47,608 nucleotides of DNA from an uncultured delta proteobacterium (GTDB lineage: Bacteria; Myxococcota; Myxococcia; Myxococcales; 40CM-4-68-19), in NCBI GenBank assembly GCA_903911145.1, contig CAIWCD010000022.1, positions 1-47,608 on the forward strand. Direction: 5' to 3'. Position 1 is the first letter of the stretch. Every line of letters begins with the position of its first letter. The notes beneath the pieces were generated by a model. The model worked only from the letters and a program-made list of their open reading frames with translations. It was not told the origin of the DNA and ran no database searches. Below, piece by piece: positions 2 to 47,608 of the stretch. The position numbers were made by a program, and so were the translations under genes.

Positions 2-697
2 TCGGCGGAGGATCTCGACATCATCCTCGGGCCCGAGCGCTACTACGCGGAGACGGCGGAGCGCACGGAAGTTCCGGGCGTGGCGACGGGCCTTGCGTGG
101 ACGGCGGCGGGCGGCGATCTGCTCTTCATCGAAGCGACGAAGATGCAGGGCAAGGGCGGGCTGACGCTGACGGGCCAGCTCGGCGACGTGATGAAGGAGT
201 CCTGCCAGGCGGCGATGAGCTACACGCGCAACAAGGCGGTGAAGCTCGGCATCGATCCGCGCTTCCTCGACAAGCAGGACATCCACATCCACTTCCCGGC
301 GGGCGCGATCCCGAAGGACGGGCCGAGCGCGGGCGTGACGATCTTCACTGCGCTCACTAGCTTGCTCACGGGAATACGCGTGCGTGGCGATGTGGCGATG
401 ACGGGCGAGGCGACGCTGCGAGGGCTGGTGCTGCCGGTCGGCGGCATCAAGGAGAAGGTCCTCGCTGCTCACCGCGCAGGCATCAAGCGGGTGATCATGC
501 CGGAGCGCTGCAAGAAGGATCTCGTCGACGTGCCGGAGCAGGCGAAGCGCGAGATGGAGTTCATCTTCGTCCACTCGATGGACGAGGTGCTCGCGGCGGC
601 GATGGAAGAGAATCCGTTCGAGCGCGCGGCGAAGCTGCCGCCGATCCCGGAAGACGGCGTGAAGACGGATGAGAAGGCGCCGGAGATCCGCGCCTAG
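2..697 (+). CDS. lon: Lon protease, C-terminal proteolytic domain (5' truncated by window edge)
   Basis: ATP-dependent serine protease of the cytoplasm that degrades misfolded and regulatory proteins. Only the last 231 residues are in the window; the reading frame is open back to base 2. The residues present match the Lon S16 peptidase domain: the catalytic Ser sits in the motif PKDGPSAG (Ser codon at 326-328) and the catalytic Lys in [17 protein letters not shown], together forming the Ser-Lys dyad. The segment [17 protein letters not shown] at the visible start is the usual linker before the protease domain. The C-terminus has a short Pro/Lys/Glu-rich tail. A strong hairpin terminator and a large inverted repeat follow the stop codon. 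Identification is secure; the AAA+ half is outside the window. Confidence 0.97.
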
Positions 698-5124: not shown

Positions 5125-6000
5125 ATGAACCGTCTGCGTCCGCTGGTCGTGACATCGCTGCTTCTCTGCTCCGCGGCAGTCTCCGCGCAGACTCCGTCTG
5201 CCCCGGCCGCCGCTCCCGCAGCCGCTCCCACAGCCGCTCCCGCTGCTGCAGCGCCGGCGGCTCCAGTCGCTCCTGCTGCTCCTGCTGCTCCCGCGGCCGC
5301 GCCCATCGCGGCTCCGGCGGCCGATGCCAAGGCAAACTGGATCGCGCGCTTCGACGAGCTCTACCTGCGCCGCGACGAAAATGCGGCGCTCAAGGAGATG
5401 TACAAGTTGGTGAAGGACGAGCTCGCCGCGCGCGAAGGCAGTTACGACGGTTGGTGGCGCAAGGCGCTGCTCGACTGCTGGCAGGCCAACGGAATGATGG
5501 ACGGAAGCGAGCTGAAGGCCTCGGTCGGCAAGCAGTGCTGGGACGCGGGCGAGAAGGCCGTCGCGATCAATGCCGACGATGTGCATGGGCAGTATTGGGC
5601 GACGGTGGGTATGGGCCTCTACAGCGAAGGGCTCGGCATCCTGAGCGCGCTCGGGCAGGGCATCGAGGGCAAGTTCAAGAACCGCGTCGGGCTCGCGATC
5701 AAGCTGGACAAGAACTATCTCGATGGTGGGCCGACAATGCTCGCGGGCCGCTTCTACTGGAAGCTGCCGTGGCCGAAGCGCGATCTCGATCAGTCGAAGA
5801 CGTTGCTCAACGAGACGCTCGCGGCGCATCCGAACAATCTGCGCGCCAAGCTGTTCCTCGCTGACACGCTCTGGACGGACGGCAAGAAGGATGAGGCGAA
5901 GGCGCTGATCGCGCAGGTGCTCTCGGCGCAGCTCGGGCCGGACAAGCCGGATGATCGGCGCAATCAAGCCCAGGCGAAGAAGTGGCTCGACAGCCACTAG
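5125..6000 (+). CDS. Secreted protein with Ala/Pro linker and TPR-like helical domain
   Basis: A 291-residue exported protein. ATG 5125 follows GAGGT at correct spacing and begins MNRLRPLVVTSLLLCSAAVSA, a classical signal peptide ending near AVSAQT. A low-complexity Ala/Pro stretch of about 50 residues leads into a helical domain that looks like tetratricopeptide-type repeats. These include WWRKALLDCWQANG, CWDAGEKAVAINADDVHGQYW and LLNETLAAHPNNLRAKLFLADTLWTDGKKDEAKAL. The arrangement somewhat resembles the TRAP-transporter T-component family, which also has helical repeats and sits in the periplasm, but no transporter gene is adjacent. It is most likely a periplasmic scaffold or binding protein; the function is not known. 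A large inverted repeat starts 4 bases after the stop. Confidence 0.75.
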   Translation: MNRLRPLVVTSLLLCSAAVSAQTPSAPAAAPAAAPTAAPAAAAPAAPVAPAAPAAPAAAPIAAPAADAKANWIARFDELYLRRDENAALKEMYKLVKDELAAREGSYDGWWRKALLDCWQANGMMDGSELKASVGKQCWDAGEKAVAINADDVHGQYWATVGMGLYSEGLGILSALGQGIEGKFKNRVGLAIKLDKNYLDGGPTMLAGRFYWKLPWPKRDLDQSKTLLNETLAAHPNNLRAKLFLADTLWTDGKKDEAKALIAQVLSAQLGPDKPDDRRNQAQAKKWLDSH

Positions 6001-6003
6001 TAC

Positions 6004-6131
6004 GCCGCAGCGCTCCGGGGGTGGTGGCCGTGCTCGGACATGCATCCGCGGCTGGCGTCCGCGCTCGCTGCGGGGAATGGTGCGGCCGCTCCTGAACTGC
6101 GCGCGGCCACCACACCCGGCAGCGCCGCGGC
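6004..6131 (+). repeat. Structured inverted repeat, type A copy 1
   Basis: The left arm (6004-6029) and right arm (6105-6131) are complementary over about 25 base pairs, with one or two mismatches and one extra C on the right strand after GGCCACCACACCCGG. Next to the arms are the conserved strands GTGCTCGGACATGCATCCGC on the left and GCCGCTCCTGAACTGCGCGC on the right. The same two strands occur at 30409-30537, where the outer stem has a different but still paired sequence. GCGGC and GCCGC allow a short inner stem. It starts 4 bases after the stop codon of the TPR-like gene. Confidence 0.82.
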
Positions 6132-13623: not shown

Positions 13624-14955
13624 ATGGCACTGAATGTGGTGCTGGTCACGCAGCGGCAGAGCCCCAAGGGCATGTGCTTGATCTGGAGCCCGATGGAGGA
13701 CGTCGCGTCCTATGTCGTTCTCGTCGCTTCGCGGAAGCTCGCGGCCGAGGAGCTTGAAGCGGCCGTCGCGCTCGGAGGCACGGACGACTGCATCGTGGCG
13801 AAGCTCGCGCCGACAGCGACCTCGGTCGTCGACGATCTCTCTGCTGCTGGTGACGTCCGCTTCTACGGCGTGGCGATGAACTTCAAGGACGGAGACCCGC
13901 GCCCAGCGCGGTTCCGCGCGATCTCCGACGGCGCGACGCCCGAGTCGATCCTCCTCTCTGTTGCGACCGGCAAGGCCGCGCCCAAGCCGGCAGCACCGAC
14001 TGCACCGCGTCCGGCTGCGGCTTCGCCGACGGGAAACACCGGCGCGTTTCGCATCGCGACTCCGGGCGCGGCACCGACAGGAAACACAGGCCAGGCGCGG
14101 GTTGCCGCACCGGGCGCTTCGCCGACGGGCAACACGGGCGCGTATCGCGTTGCAGCTCCGGGAGCGGCGCCGACGGGAAACACAGGCCAGACGCGGGTTG
14201 CAGCACCGGCCGCTGCGGCAGCTGCATCGCCGAGCGGGAATACCGGCTCGATGCGCGTCGGAACTCCTGCGGCGACTGCACCGGTCGCCGCTGCTGCTGC
14301 GCCTCCCGCGGAAGATCCGATGGAGGCGCGCAAGCGCCAGCAGGCTGCAGCGAGAGCGCGTCGCGACGCCGAAGCGGCCGCAGAGCCGACCGAGCAGGTC
14401 GCGCCTCCGTCGCAGATTCCGCTCGAGGAGCCGTTCGCGTTTCGCATGAGCGGCGGGACGCAGACGTGGGACGGTCTGCGCATCACCTGGGAGCGCGTGA
14501 CGGGCGCTGCGGCGTACGAGATCCTCGTCAGCGATCATCAGATCTTCGGCGACGAGCTGGCCGATGCGCTCGCCGGCAAGGCCGACTTCACCAGCGCGAC
14601 GGCCGTCGGTCCGTCGACGACTGCGCTCATCGACAACATCACGCCTCGCGAAGCGCGCGGGTGGTATCTCGTGCTCGCGCGGGCGAAGGACGGAACGCGC
14701 ACGCCGCATCCCTTTCAGGTCGGCGATGCGGAGGCGAGCGGACGCGCGGTGGCTGCGTTCGTGAATCCCAATCGCACCGGTGAGCTGCGCGCAGAGGTCG
14801 AGGGGATGCTCGCCGATGCGCGCGAACAACTCGAGCGCTGGACGAGCGAGAAGGACACCGGCGCGCAGCGCGAGGCGAAGCGGCTGGTGCGAGATGCGCT
14901 GCTGATCTTCCCGAATCATCCGGGCGCGAAGGCGCTCGCCGAGGAGCTGGGGTAG
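13624..14955 (+). CDS. Unknown protein with two Fn3-like domains and five PTGNTG repeats
   Basis: A 443-residue protein of unknown function without a signal peptide. Residues 1-105 (LIWSPMEDVASYVVLVASR, FYGVAMNFKDGD) and about 275-375 (LRITWERVTGAAAYEILVSD, GWYLVLARAKDG) resemble fibronectin-type III-like beta domains. Between them lies an Ala/Pro-rich region with five 16-residue repeats of the form (S/A)PTGNTGxxRVAAPGA (residues about 134-213), then a charged helical stretch rich in Ala, Arg and Glu. The C-terminal 75 residues look helical, ending LIFPNHPGAKALAEELG. The evenly spaced Thr-Gly-x-x-Arg units could be phosphorylation or binding sites for a partner; that is inference. The stop codon is in frame with the following methyltransferase gene. 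Confidence 0.72.
   Translation: MALNVVLVTQRQSPKGMCLIWSPMEDVASYVVLVASRKLAAEELEAAVALGGTDDCIVAKLAPTATSVVDDLSAAGDVRFYGVAMNFKDGDPRPARFRAISDGATPESILLSVATGKAAPKPAAPTAPRPAAASPTGNTGAFRIATPGAAPTGNTGQARVAAPGASPTGNTGAYRVAAPGAAPTGNTGQTRVAAPAAAAAASPSGNTGSMRVGTPAATAPVAAAAAPPAEDPMEARKRQQAAARARRDAEAAAEPTEQVAPPSQIPLEEPFAFRMSGGTQTWDGLRITWERVTGAAAYEILVSDHQIFGDELADALAGKADFTSATAVGPSTTALIDNITPREARGWYLVLARAKDGTRTPHPFQVGDAEASGRAVAAFVNPNRTGELRAEVEGMLADAREQLERWTSEKDTGAQREAKRLVRDALLIFPNHPGAKALAEELG
14022..14262 (+). repeat. 48-base coding tandem repeats (five units)
   Basis: Five imperfect 48-base units encode (S/A)PTGNTG followed by AFRIATPGA, QARVAAPGA, AYRVAAPGA, QTRVAAPAA and, in a more diverged last unit, SPSGNTGSMRVGTPAA. 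Odd and even units are more alike than neighbours (S-units carry AF/AY, A-units carry QA/QT), which points to duplication of a 96-base double unit. Confidence 0.8.
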
Positions 14956-20432: not shown

Positions 20433-20558
20433 CGCACAGTTCGACACGGTGGAAATGCAGGAGCCCGCTGGCGTGTTCTTCTCGCGGCGATTACATTCCG
20501 CGCCCCTTTGCAGCACTCACGTTCGTTCACGCACGTTCAACTCAACGAGGAACACACC

Positions 20559-20990
20559 ATGAAGAAGCTCGTCTGCTCGCTCGCTGTCGCCACTGCTTTC
20601 GCCGCGATCCCCTCTGCCGTTCGCGCGGCCGATGCGGCTGCTGCGGCCCCTGCCGCTGCCGAGAAGAAGGAAGCGTTTGGCCGTCTCACCATCGAAGAGG
20701 TCGACGCAATGATCGCCAAGAAGGACGGCTTCATCTTCGACAACAACTCGAAGGAGAGCTTCGCCAAGGGCCACGTCCCGACGGCGAAGTGGGTTGAGTT
20801 CGATGAGGTGAAGACGACCGATCTGCCCGCCGACAAGGCCGCGAAGCTGGTCTTCTACTGCGGCGGCGAGAAGTGCCACGCGTGCCACAAGGCGGCGCAG
20901 ATGGCGCTCGAGCTTGGCTACAAGAACGTCTACATCATGCCCGCCGGCATCTCGGGGTGGGAGAAGGCGAAGAAGAAGCTTGAAGCGTAA
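20559..20990 (+). CDS. Exported rhodanese-like domain protein
   Basis: A 143-residue periplasmic protein. MKKLVCSLAVATAFAAIPSAVRAAD is a signal peptide; the ATG is preceded by GAGG at good distance. After a short Ala/Pro linker comes a single rhodanese domain: LTIEEVDAMIAKKDGFIFDNNSKESFAKGHVPTAKWV and the loop FYCGGEKCHACHKAAQMALELGY with the probable catalytic Cys in YCGGEKC. The extra cysteines KCHAC suggest redox or metal roles. The enzyme would transfer sulfur or act on thiols in the periplasm. Both an inverted repeat and a strong terminator follow its stop, so transcription ends here. Confidence 0.87.
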   Translation: MKKLVCSLAVATAFAAIPSAVRAADAAAAAPAAAEKKEAFGRLTIEEVDAMIAKKDGFIFDNNSKESFAKGHVPTAKWVEFDEVKTTDLPADKAAKLVFYCGGEKCHACHKAAQMALELGYKNVYIMPAGISGWEKAKKKLEA

Positions 20991-20994
20991 GGGC

Positions 20995-21094
20995 GGTGCG
21001 CTCGGATCGACTCTCGATCCGTGCTCGCTCTGACTTTCCCGCGAGGGGAAAGTCGACGCTGCGCGCGGCCTCGAGAGTCGACTCCGGCCGCACC
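20995..21094 (+). repeat. Structured inverted repeat, type B copy 2
   Basis: The left side (20995-21017) pairs with the right side (21071-21094). CGACTCTCGA and TCGAGAGTCG are perfect, followed outward on the right by an extra C and then by further pairing of GGTGCG with CGCACC and CGGA with TCCG, with a mismatch. Inside, GACTTTCCC (21032-21040) and GGGAAAGTC (21046-21054) make a perfect hairpin with loop GCGAG, the same loop as in the copy at 774-854. The joining strands CCGTGCTCGCT and CTGCGCGC are shared with that copy while both stems differ. It starts 5 bases after the rhodanese stop. Confidence 0.82.
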
Positions 21095-21158
21095 TTGAAG
21101 GACCGGACGCAAGAGTAGGTCGCGACCGTCGAGAGCGCATCCTGTTGAAAGAGAAAGG

Positions 21159-29332: not shown

Positions 29333-30403
29333 ATGTCCAATATGGTTCAAGCCATTCGCATGGCGCTGCACGTTGCCGAAGAGCGCCACGGACTCAACGA
29401 TGTCTTCGGCGAGGATGTCGGCCCGCCGCTCGGCGGCGCATTCACCGCGACGCAAGGGCTTCGCACGTCGTGGAACTCGCCTCTCGATGAGCGCGGAATT
29501 GTCGGCGCGGCCATCGGCCTGGGCCTCGCGGGCTCGCGCAACGTCGCCGAGGTTCAATTCTGCGATTACATCTTCAATACGATCGATCTGCTCAAGCTCG
29601 GCGGGATGATCTCGTGGGGCTCGAACGGCGATTGGAACTGCCCGACGACTATCATGACGCCCGTGGGCTCGGGGATTCGCGGCAGCATCTACCACTCGCA
29701 TTCGTTCGACGCGACGGCGACGCATATCCAGGGATTCAAGATCGCGATCCCGTCGCGGCCGCTCGATGCCTATGGGCTTCTGCTCTCGTGCATTGTCGAT
29801 CCGAACCCCTGCCTGTTCCTGATTCCCAAGGCGTTGATGCGCACGCGCTCGGCGCCGGGTGAAGAGATCCCGGGCGTCGATGTCGATGACCGCGCGCTCT
29901 CGAAGATGATCGATGCACCGCTCGGCGACCGCACGAAGTGGACGTCGCAGTGGCCGAATACTCCCGACCTCTTTATCCCGCTCGGCGAGGGGCGCACGGT
30001 CCGTCCGGGCCGCGACGTTACGGTCGTCAGTTATGGGCGCATGCTTCCTCTCTGCGCAAAGGCCGCAGATGATCTCGCGCTCGAGAGCAATGGCGCGATC
30101 GACGCCGAGGTCATCGACCTGCGTTCGCTCTGTCCGCTCGACTGGCCGCGCATCAAGGAGAGCGTCAAGCGCACGGGCCGTGTGCTGTTCGTCAATGAGG
30201 ATATCGAGGTGACGAACTTCGGCGAGCACCTGCTGCGGCGCACGGTGGACGAGCTGTTCTATGAGCTGCTCGCGCCGCCCAGGGTGCTTGCGGGATCGGC
30301 GACGCCGGGGATTGGGCTTGCGGATAATCTCGAGGCAGCGTCGGTGCCGCAATTGGCGGGCATTGCGGCGGCGATTCGGGATTTGGCGAAGCACCAGCCG
30401 TAG
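29333..30403 (+). CDS. 2-oxoacid dehydrogenase E1 component, beta subunit
   Basis: Pairs with the alpha subunit to form the heterotetrameric E1; 356 residues. FGEDVGPPLGGAFTATQGL, SPLDERGIVGAAIGLGLAGSRNVAEVQFCDYIFNTIDLL and the C-terminal DLRSLCPLDWPRIKESVKRTGRVLFVNED are typical. The segment GSGIRGSIYHSHSFDATATHIQGFKI corresponds to the usual GAQHSQ-like active loop; the second His replaces Gln. The start ATG 29333 follows TAGGAG that overlaps the alpha stop. No E2 or E3 gene follows: an inverted repeat and a minus-strand gene come next, so the rest of the complex must be encoded elsewhere. Confidence 0.92.
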   Translation: MSNMVQAIRMALHVAEERHGLNDVFGEDVGPPLGGAFTATQGLRTSWNSPLDERGIVGAAIGLGLAGSRNVAEVQFCDYIFNTIDLLKLGGMISWGSNGDWNCPTTIMTPVGSGIRGSIYHSHSFDATATHIQGFKIAIPSRPLDAYGLLLSCIVDPNPCLFLIPKALMRTRSAPGEEIPGVDVDDRALSKMIDAPLGDRTKWTSQWPNTPDLFIPLGEGRTVRPGRDVTVVSYGRMLPLCAKAADDLALESNGAIDAEVIDLRSLCPLDWPRIKESVKRTGRVLFVNEDIEVTNFGEHLLRRTVDELFYELLAPPRVLAGSATPGIGLADNLEAASVPQLAGIAAAIRDLAKHQP

Positions 30404-30408
30404 AGTGC

Positions 30409-30537
30409 GCAGCGGGGCACCGGGTATTGCGGCCGTGCTCAAACATGCATCCGCGGCCGCGCGTGGTTGCTCATAATGACGTTATATAGGGCCGCTCCTG
30501 AACTGCGCGCGGCCGCAATACCCGGCTGCCCCGCTGC
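30409..30537 (+). repeat. Structured inverted repeat, type A copy 2
   Basis: The left arm (30409-30434) and right arm (30511-30537) pair over 26 bases without a mismatch; only one C on the right strand, after GGCCGCAATACCCGG, is unpaired. The inner strands CCGTGCTCAAACATGCATCC and GCCGCTCCTGAACTGCGCGC are nearly the same as in the copy at 6004-6131, while the outer stem has changed on both sides (GTATTGC/GCAATAC here, TGGTGG/CCACCA there). GCGGCC and GGCCGC allow an inner stem around an AT-rich core containing ATAATGACGTTAT. It starts 5 bases after the E1 beta stop. Confidence 0.86.
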
Positions 30538-47127: not shown

Positions 47128-47608
47128 ATGCCGAGAGCACTGCACCATCTGCAGCGGGCCTCACGAGTCTTCGCGCTTGGCCTCCTCGCGCTCTCAGCAG
47201 TCGCGTGCGATCCGGGCATCTACGGCTTCTGCCGCAGCGACACCGATTGCGGCGCCGAAGGAACTCGTTGCAGCAGCGGCGACGCGGGGACGCTCGGCTA
47301 CTGCGCCGCGCCAGACAAGCGCGATGGGGGCAGCGGCGGAGGCAGCGCAGGTGGAAGTGGCGGCGGTAGCGCGGGCGGAAGCGGCGGCGGCAGCGGCGGA
47401 GGCAGCGCAGGTGGAAGTGGCGGCGGTAGCGCGGGTGGAAGCGGCGGCGGCAGCGGCGGAGGCCGCGGTGGAGGCAGCGCGGGAGGAAGCGGCGGTGGCA
47501 GCGGCGGAGGCAGCGCGGGCGGCAGCGGCGGCGGAAGCGGTGGAGGCAGCGCGGGCGGCAGCGGCGGCGGAAGCGGCGGAGGCAGCGCGGGCGGAAGCGG
47601 CGGCGGAA
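47128..47608 (+). CDS. Lipoprotein with Cys-rich head and Gly/Ser repeats (3' truncated by window edge)
   Basis: A lipoprotein gene that runs off the window; 160 codons are visible. Translation gives a signal peptide ending LSAVAC (lipobox AVAC), then a short cysteine-rich segment (FCRSDTDCGAEGTRCSSG...GYCAAP) of a type common in Myxococcota surface proteins, and then a repeat of GGSGGGSAGG units to the edge. The Gly/Ser region probably forms a flexible linker to a domain beyond the window. Confidence 0.78.
   Translation, partial: MPRALHHLQRASRVFALGLLALSAVACDPGIYGFCRSDTDCGAEGTRCSSGDAGTLGYCAAPDKRDGGSGGGSAGGSGGGSAGGSGGGSGGGSAGGSGGGSAGGSGGGSGGGRGGGSAGGSGGGSGGGSAGGSGGGSGGGSAGGSGGGSGGGSAGGSGGG
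47329..47608 (+). repeat. Gly/Ser-coding tandem repeats
   Basis: From about 47329 the DNA is a tandem repeat with 15- and 30-base periods built from GGCGGAGGCAGCGC and GGTGGAAGTGGCGG-like units, all encoding Gly, Ser and occasional Ala or Arg. Copies differ mostly at third positions (AGT/AGC, GGT/GGA), so the repeat has aged while keeping its amino acids. The repeat continues past the window edge. Confidence 0.85.

Follow-up and report, generated by a model that had tools for sequence, protein, structure and literature searches.

Introduction

MITE-like repeats such as ERIC and NEMIS/Correia are palindromic, non-coding elements of 100-150 nt that lie near genes and are co-transcribed with them. 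Conserved ends link them to a transposase. Hairpins are also found directly behind genes at integron attC sites, where structure is conserved over sequence, and in intrinsic terminators, which are GC-rich hairpins behind stop codons. In double-hairpin elements (DHE), free stems are combined with fixed loops. These elements have been described as mobile nested or double hairpins in fungal mitochondria (Paquin 2000, cited in PMC5910586). REP and REPIN sequences are dispersed extragenic palindromes, many of which lie at most 15 nt downstream of stop codons, and their stems are heterogeneous within superfamilies (PMC3733652; PMC12306157). A lowering of translation was reported for E. coli REPs that lie no more than 15 nt from the stop codon (Liang et al. 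2015, cited in PMC12306157). Perfect stems, in turn, have been shown to be made and maintained by template switching (PMC8794818).

The elements described here came to light as two nested inverted repeats in the window, by which we mean the whole stretch of 47,608 nucleotides that was analysed. They belong to a real, sizeable and genus-restricted family with two interiors on one frame, which makes the observation larger than the first-pass annotation had supposed. Our best reading, to which we assign a probability of about one half, is that these are dispersed non-coding nested palindromes, REP/MITE-like and restricted to one genus, that spread to the 3' ends of genes; one arm would serve as the template to renew the other, and a recogniser would keep the core.

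Nested palindromes in the window

Two nested inverted repeats with loop GCGAG and identical joining strands had been claimed at 774-854 and 20995-21094, and all of these features were found. The first type B copy occupies 762-866 as a whole palindrome (plus strand; B model E = 3.5e-18). It is built from an outermost stem, a stem at 774-787/841-854, core strands at 788-798 and 831-838, and an inner hairpin at 803-823 whose stem (803-810/816-823) encloses the loop at 811-815. This inner stem measures 8 bp rather than the 7 first given, and the outermost stem had been seen only in part. The second type B copy occupies 20995-21094 (plus strand; E = 2.0e-23), with core strands at 21019-21029 and 21059-21066 and an inner hairpin at 21032-21054 (stem 21032-21040/21046-21054 around GCGAG at 21041-21045). 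Its stem at 21007-21017/21071-21081 is followed by a bulged C at 21082 and then by the outermost stem at about 20995-21006/21083-21094. Folding thus placed a third, outermost stem outside the outer stem of the earlier description, with the bulged C on the right arm between the two. The joining strands CCGTGCTCGCT (788-798; 21019-21029) and CTGCGCGC (831-838; 21059-21066) are identical in both copies and pair partly with each other (CCGTGC with GCGCGG), a T.G pair included.

The window also holds two type A copies on the plus strand. One, with core CCGTGCTCGGACATGCA...CTGAACTGCGCGCGG, lies at 6004-6131 (A model E = 8.7e-28), 5 nt (as measured in the genome-wide gene calling) after the TAG stop of a gene called at 5125-6000 (plus strand). 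The other, with core CCGTGCTCAAACATGCA...CTGAACTGCGCGCGG, lies at 30409-30537 (E = 1.6e-29), 7 nt (by the same measure) after the TAG stop of the gene at 29333-30403 (plus strand), which was read by eye as alpha-ketoacid dehydrogenase E1-beta-like. The second type B copy is preceded at 4 nt by the TAA stop of a gene at 20508-20990 (plus strand; rhodanese-like, read by eye), and upstream of the first lies a gene at 2-697 (plus strand), with a separate hairpin carrying TTT at about 728-757 in between. Against dinucleotide shuffles, the folding z-scores were -7.2 and -6.0 for the type B copies and -4.9 and -7.2 for the type A copies. A downstream tail with CCGGACGCAAGAG follows the second type B copy at 21095-21120 (plus strand) and is also found behind some other A and B copies.

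Other repeats were observed in the same window. A short hairpin repeat of a second kind, CCGCGCCCAG[AT]GCGG, whose outer flanks vary, gave 44 matches with at most 3 mismatches vs 20 expected, and no shuffle scored as high; among its sites are 688, 1785, 8016, 12060, 13897, 15089 (minus strand), 24340, 26139 and 44715 (minus strand). A repeat family of 96 nt with 48-nt spacing occupies 14020-14211 within the called gene 13624-14955. At the contig end, a degenerate 12-nt tandem array (47260-47606) overlaps the last called gene (47177-47608).

Census and family frame

Covariance models were built from nine B copies and fifteen A copies. Searches of the genome with these models returned about 64 copies (30 of type B and 34 of type A), all at E < 1e-6; the A copies all scored 1.5e-14 or better on one strand. 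The exact pattern CCGTGCTCGCTN{0,30}CTGCGCGC matched the genome 11 times vs 0 for the reversed control, and these matches comprise eight B copies and three sites inside A copies. A looser core pattern gave 31 matches vs 13 for reversed controls.

Could chance alone place such strings in a GC-rich genome? Loose strings of 9-10 bases are by themselves as frequent there as in shuffles. However, this explanation is refuted by the full pattern, by the 64 model matches and by a covariation that, in model-fitted alignments of both types, exceeds all shuffles or all but one. The first-pass annotation had treated the short strands as parts of a structure with complementary arms. A genome-wide search did not refute that view: among the loci checked, element copies carry flanking stems (scores 24-46, with shuffles reaching at most 20), and the other matches to the loose pattern have none, one borderline case excepted. 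One B copy (L184/L038) is decayed and has lost its arm match.

The two types share a frame that runs from a variable outermost stem, through a C bulged from the right arm and a variable stem of 13-14 bp, to the core CCGTGCTC...CTGCGCGC. Counted outward from the core, the bulged C comes after 13-14 bp on the 3' arm, and it is missing from some A copies. Inside the core, type B has a hairpin of the GCRAG type (absent from one B copy, L053), and type A has ACATGCATCCGCGGC...GGCCGCTCCTGAA with a variable middle. The two types had been proposed to form one family. The common core strands, bulged C and outermost stem support this, but the types do not fall into a single covariance model: the A model finds only A copies, and the weaker matches of the B model include just two A copies (E = 0.014 and 0.54).

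Position behind stop codons

Genes were called with a small codon-usage script. An upstream gene was called for 29 type A copies, 20 of which lie behind a gene on the same strand. Eighteen of these 20 start 3-10 nt past the stop codon. The remaining two (L058 and L083), at 49 and 54 nt, have a tandem duplicate of the element's own left half in the gap. These two left-half duplications, just before the A copy, are independent, and both break at CATGC; they may have been left by the mechanism that copies the element. For type B, a same-strand gene precedes 17 of the 30 copies, and in 13 of these cases the distance from the stop is 2-21 nt. Gaps between divergent genes hold one of the 29 A copies and six of the 30 B copies.

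The host genes, read by eye, are ordinary: Rho, MreB, LexA, RecN, formate-THF ligase, UDP-glucose dehydrogenase, cysteine desulfurase and others. The C-termini of twelve host genes were joined into a chimaeric query and searched against three relatives, and orthologues of 11 of the 12 were found in one to three of them. Most stop where the host protein does, give or take a few residues. This holds, exactly or nearly, for the gene at 29333-30403, behind whose orthologues no element was seen. By eye, no element core was seen behind the orthologues' stops in any of the three relatives, whose 3' regions are too diverged for exact empty sites. It thus appears that this lineage acquired the copies behind native stop codons that stayed intact; judged from the distribution of the sequences, loss in the relatives is less likely.

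TAG stops are over-represented ahead of the elements (15 of 18 vs 18 of 39 other window genes; Fisher p = 0.01). The idea that the element supplies the stop codon was rejected, since orthologues stop at that residue or close to it, and TAG is frequently their stop codon too. Stop-codon read-through was set aside as well: the interiors vary in length and share no common frame. Past the palindrome, a tail CCGGACGnAAAG (for example at 21103) follows many A and B copies, and a looser form of it was found behind 12 of 23 A copies in sense orientation. That the tail marks gene ends in general was rejected; in the window it occurs only behind the second type B copy.

The orientation of the sense copies and their distance from stop codons would also suit a host 3'-UTR RNA element, in which a hairpin in the transcript ends or protects mRNAs, a cellular protein binds the core and selection on the RNA keeps the pairing. 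Very stable folds point the same way, as does the core pair, an invariant U.G on the sense strand, and so do close tail-to-tail pairs of elements (C31 97711+/97931-, C12 18748+/19027-, C39 141940+/142163- and C52 31213+/31533-). However, a minority of A copies and about half of the B copies are not behind a same-strand gene, the copy number is only about 64, and the other families searched gave no match. Behind the stem, none of 60 copies has a U-tract (at least 6 T in an 8-nt window), so classical intrinsic termination is unlikely. We consider a 3'-UTR RNA element possible but doubtful, and the mispairs of the stems bear on it further.

Stem turnover and the mispair spectrum

Between copies the stems differ by about 60%, while the arms of each copy pair at 92-96% by strict Watson-Crick rules. 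Near the core, 59% of left-arm positions differ between type A copies, and none of 435 copy pairs is identical. The first-pass annotation had proposed that stems turn over while loops stay fixed, and this was borne out across the genome, where stems change with compensation and loops and core are kept. In model-fitted alignments most variable pairs have changed on both sides. Covariation in these alignments reached 0.456 for type A (at most 0.062 for slid partners; 98.1% of cells paired) and 0.482 for type B (at most 0.123 for slid partners; 93.1% of cells paired).

What maintains this pairing? Model-fitted alignments favour wobble, and in them a modest excess of G.U over A.C was seen (12 vs 8 in type A, 27 vs 12 in type B). 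The arms were therefore aligned to each other and scored by Watson-Crick identity only, to escape model-fitted bias. On this scoring the 726 pairs of type A comprise 697 Watson-Crick, 6 G.T, 11 A.C and 12 other pairs, and the 683 pairs of type B include 629 Watson-Crick, 11 G.T and 9 A.C. Together the arms hold 17 G.T vs 20 A.C and thus no G.T excess. The inner hairpin of type B has 229 Watson-Crick pairs, no G.T, no A.C and 4 other mispairs. The two tRNAs in the loci are too few to serve as a control for wobble frequency.

A stem selected as RNA should leave far more G.U than A.C. The absence of a G.T excess thus argues against ordinary selection on an RNA stem, the 3'-UTR element included, and for copying of arm from arm in DNA. 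From the sequences, pairing seems to be maintained at the DNA level rather than by ordinary RNA selection. The bulged C behaves accordingly, being kept in about half of the A copies and lost in the rest; the version that was copied can be that of either arm. One observation counts against arm copying: in the close copies L033 and L043 a mismatch is kept beside a compensated change, although a template switch spanning a long tract would have removed it.

The core T.G pair is invariant in all A copies and nearly all B copies, and it is also found in the sister-species copies. The invariant core suggests recognition of a structure, and we infer that a pair kept in spite of arm copying must be held by a recogniser. 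These data point both ways on the earlier proposal of a function at the RNA or cruciform level: the lack of wobble excess speaks against RNA stem selection, and the invariant core fits a recognised structure.

Distribution and candidate helpers

Among 60 relatives, type B was found in the own genome only, and A-like copies in the own genome and one genome of the same genus (G001, 88% complete), where a search for type B gave nothing above the reversed control. The A left core with at most one mismatch occurs in 34 of 147 genomes of the class. Outside the genus these matches are sporadic (mostly single) and carry one mismatch, and the right core is missing at the loci checked. Among 84,980 named genomes, the paired A core was found in one other genome only, the same-genus MAG SZAS-2 LIN-364, which matches G001. 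A pattern scan revealed no viral carriage, and a query with one type A copy revealed none on plasmids or phages.

In the G001 copies read, the core-adjacent stem is nearly constant (GGGGGAGGGGT), and variation lies in the outermost stem and the interior. It is thus in the window's lineage that the core-proximal stem turns over fast. A palindrome of another nested type, TCACCGCAGAGACGC...CTCTGCGGTGA, was observed in G001 behind a cysteine desulfurase gene (L133). The clade may carry several nested-palindrome families.

The layout of gene followed by site, a structure conserved over sequence, the conserved bulge and mismatch, and stems of Watson-Crick pairs only would also suit folded single-stranded DNA recombination sites like attC, in which stem sequence is free and extrahelical bases are read. 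However, the hosts are chromosomal core genes (Rho, MreB, LexA, RecN) rather than cassette arrays, no match to the integron integrase (TIGR02249) was found over the cut-off, and no attC core sites were seen by eye. Such sites are an improbable explanation.

Several separate conserved segments that recur in the sister-species copies (CCGTGCTCRRACATGCA, GTGCTC and CTGAACTGCGCGCGG) recall an RNA-mobile element, ribozyme- or intron-like, with free stems and conserved unpaired segments, that spreads via an RNA intermediate and reverse transcriptase. Wobble-type variation at some predicted core pairs fits this too, and three reverse transcriptase genes are present in the own genome. However, none was found in the 88% complete G001, which carries the family, and reverse transcriptase was rejected as a shared helper on this ground. 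The stems show no wobble excess, and there is no Rfam match to any intron or ribozyme. In the window, Rfam 15 gave no match at the gathering score, and a permissive search with one A and one B copy returned only whalefall-1 on the minus strand, at 15.3 bits with a cut-off of 37. An RNA-mobile element is slightly less probable still. The Y1/RAYT (IS200) transposase (PF01797), the enzyme associated with REP sequences, had no match in the 98.96% complete genome.

Proposed origin and meaning

Under our preferred reading of REP/MITE-like nested palindromes, copies would have been gained in this lineage beside the 3' ends of ordinary genes by transposition-like copying. Identity between the two arms of each copy would be upheld mainly by DNA synthesis that uses the opposite arm as template (quasipalindrome correction or template switching), for which strict Watson-Crick pairing, the lack of wobble excess and the resolution of the bulge in both directions argue. 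The stem sequence would then drift freely while pairing stays perfect. The core with its T.G pair is probably kept since it is recognised, most likely by the factor that multiplies the element. Near the stop codon, a hairpin should be a barrier to 3' exonucleases and may also reduce translation. Since most sense A copies lie within 15 nt of the stop, a translation effect similar to that of the E. coli REPs is a reasonable prediction. Blind insertion would not usually place copies so tightly behind stops, and this spacing could reflect a selected function instead. A bolder version, which we hold to be rather unlikely, is that the elements form a new class of mobile palindromes placed behind native stops, recognised via the fixed core, with arms remade always or often when an element is copied. 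The enzyme that multiplies them would be of a class so far unconnected with REP-like repeats.

Very strong covariation that lacks the mispair spectrum of RNA selection is a caution for covariation-based RNA discovery. The family is also a natural case on which to test how well template switching explains the evolution of hairpins. How do repeats find gene ends, and how does a hairpin a few bases past the stop affect expression? The anchoring of these elements behind intact housekeeping stops offers a way to ask both questions.

Comparison with known systems

The elements are filed as a variant of dispersed palindromic repeats, REP/MITE-like in their working, without two features of REP sequences. 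The first is the head, GTAG or CGTC beside a palindrome of 20-40 bp: the left flank here is a TAG, TGA or TAA stop or xAG, with a variable preceding base. The second is the RAYT. The elements share with REP and REPIN sequences their dispersal as high-copy palindromes at gene 3' ends; they differ in their length of about 100-130 nt, their nested stems, their conserved core and a turnover of stems copy by copy. MITE-like repeats resemble them in size, palindromic and non-coding nature and location near genes. However, conservation is reversed: in MITEs the ends are conserved, and here the centre is conserved and the terminal arms pair but vary in sequence. Intrinsic terminators share the GC-rich hairpin behind the stop codon, whereas the present elements have no U-tract, carry a conserved core, number about 64 and are lineage-restricted. 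Unlike attC sites, they are dispersed single copies behind core genes. The DHE are organellar, and the elements here are single nested hairpins; the likeness considered is one of structure, in nested hairpins with free stems and fixed loops.
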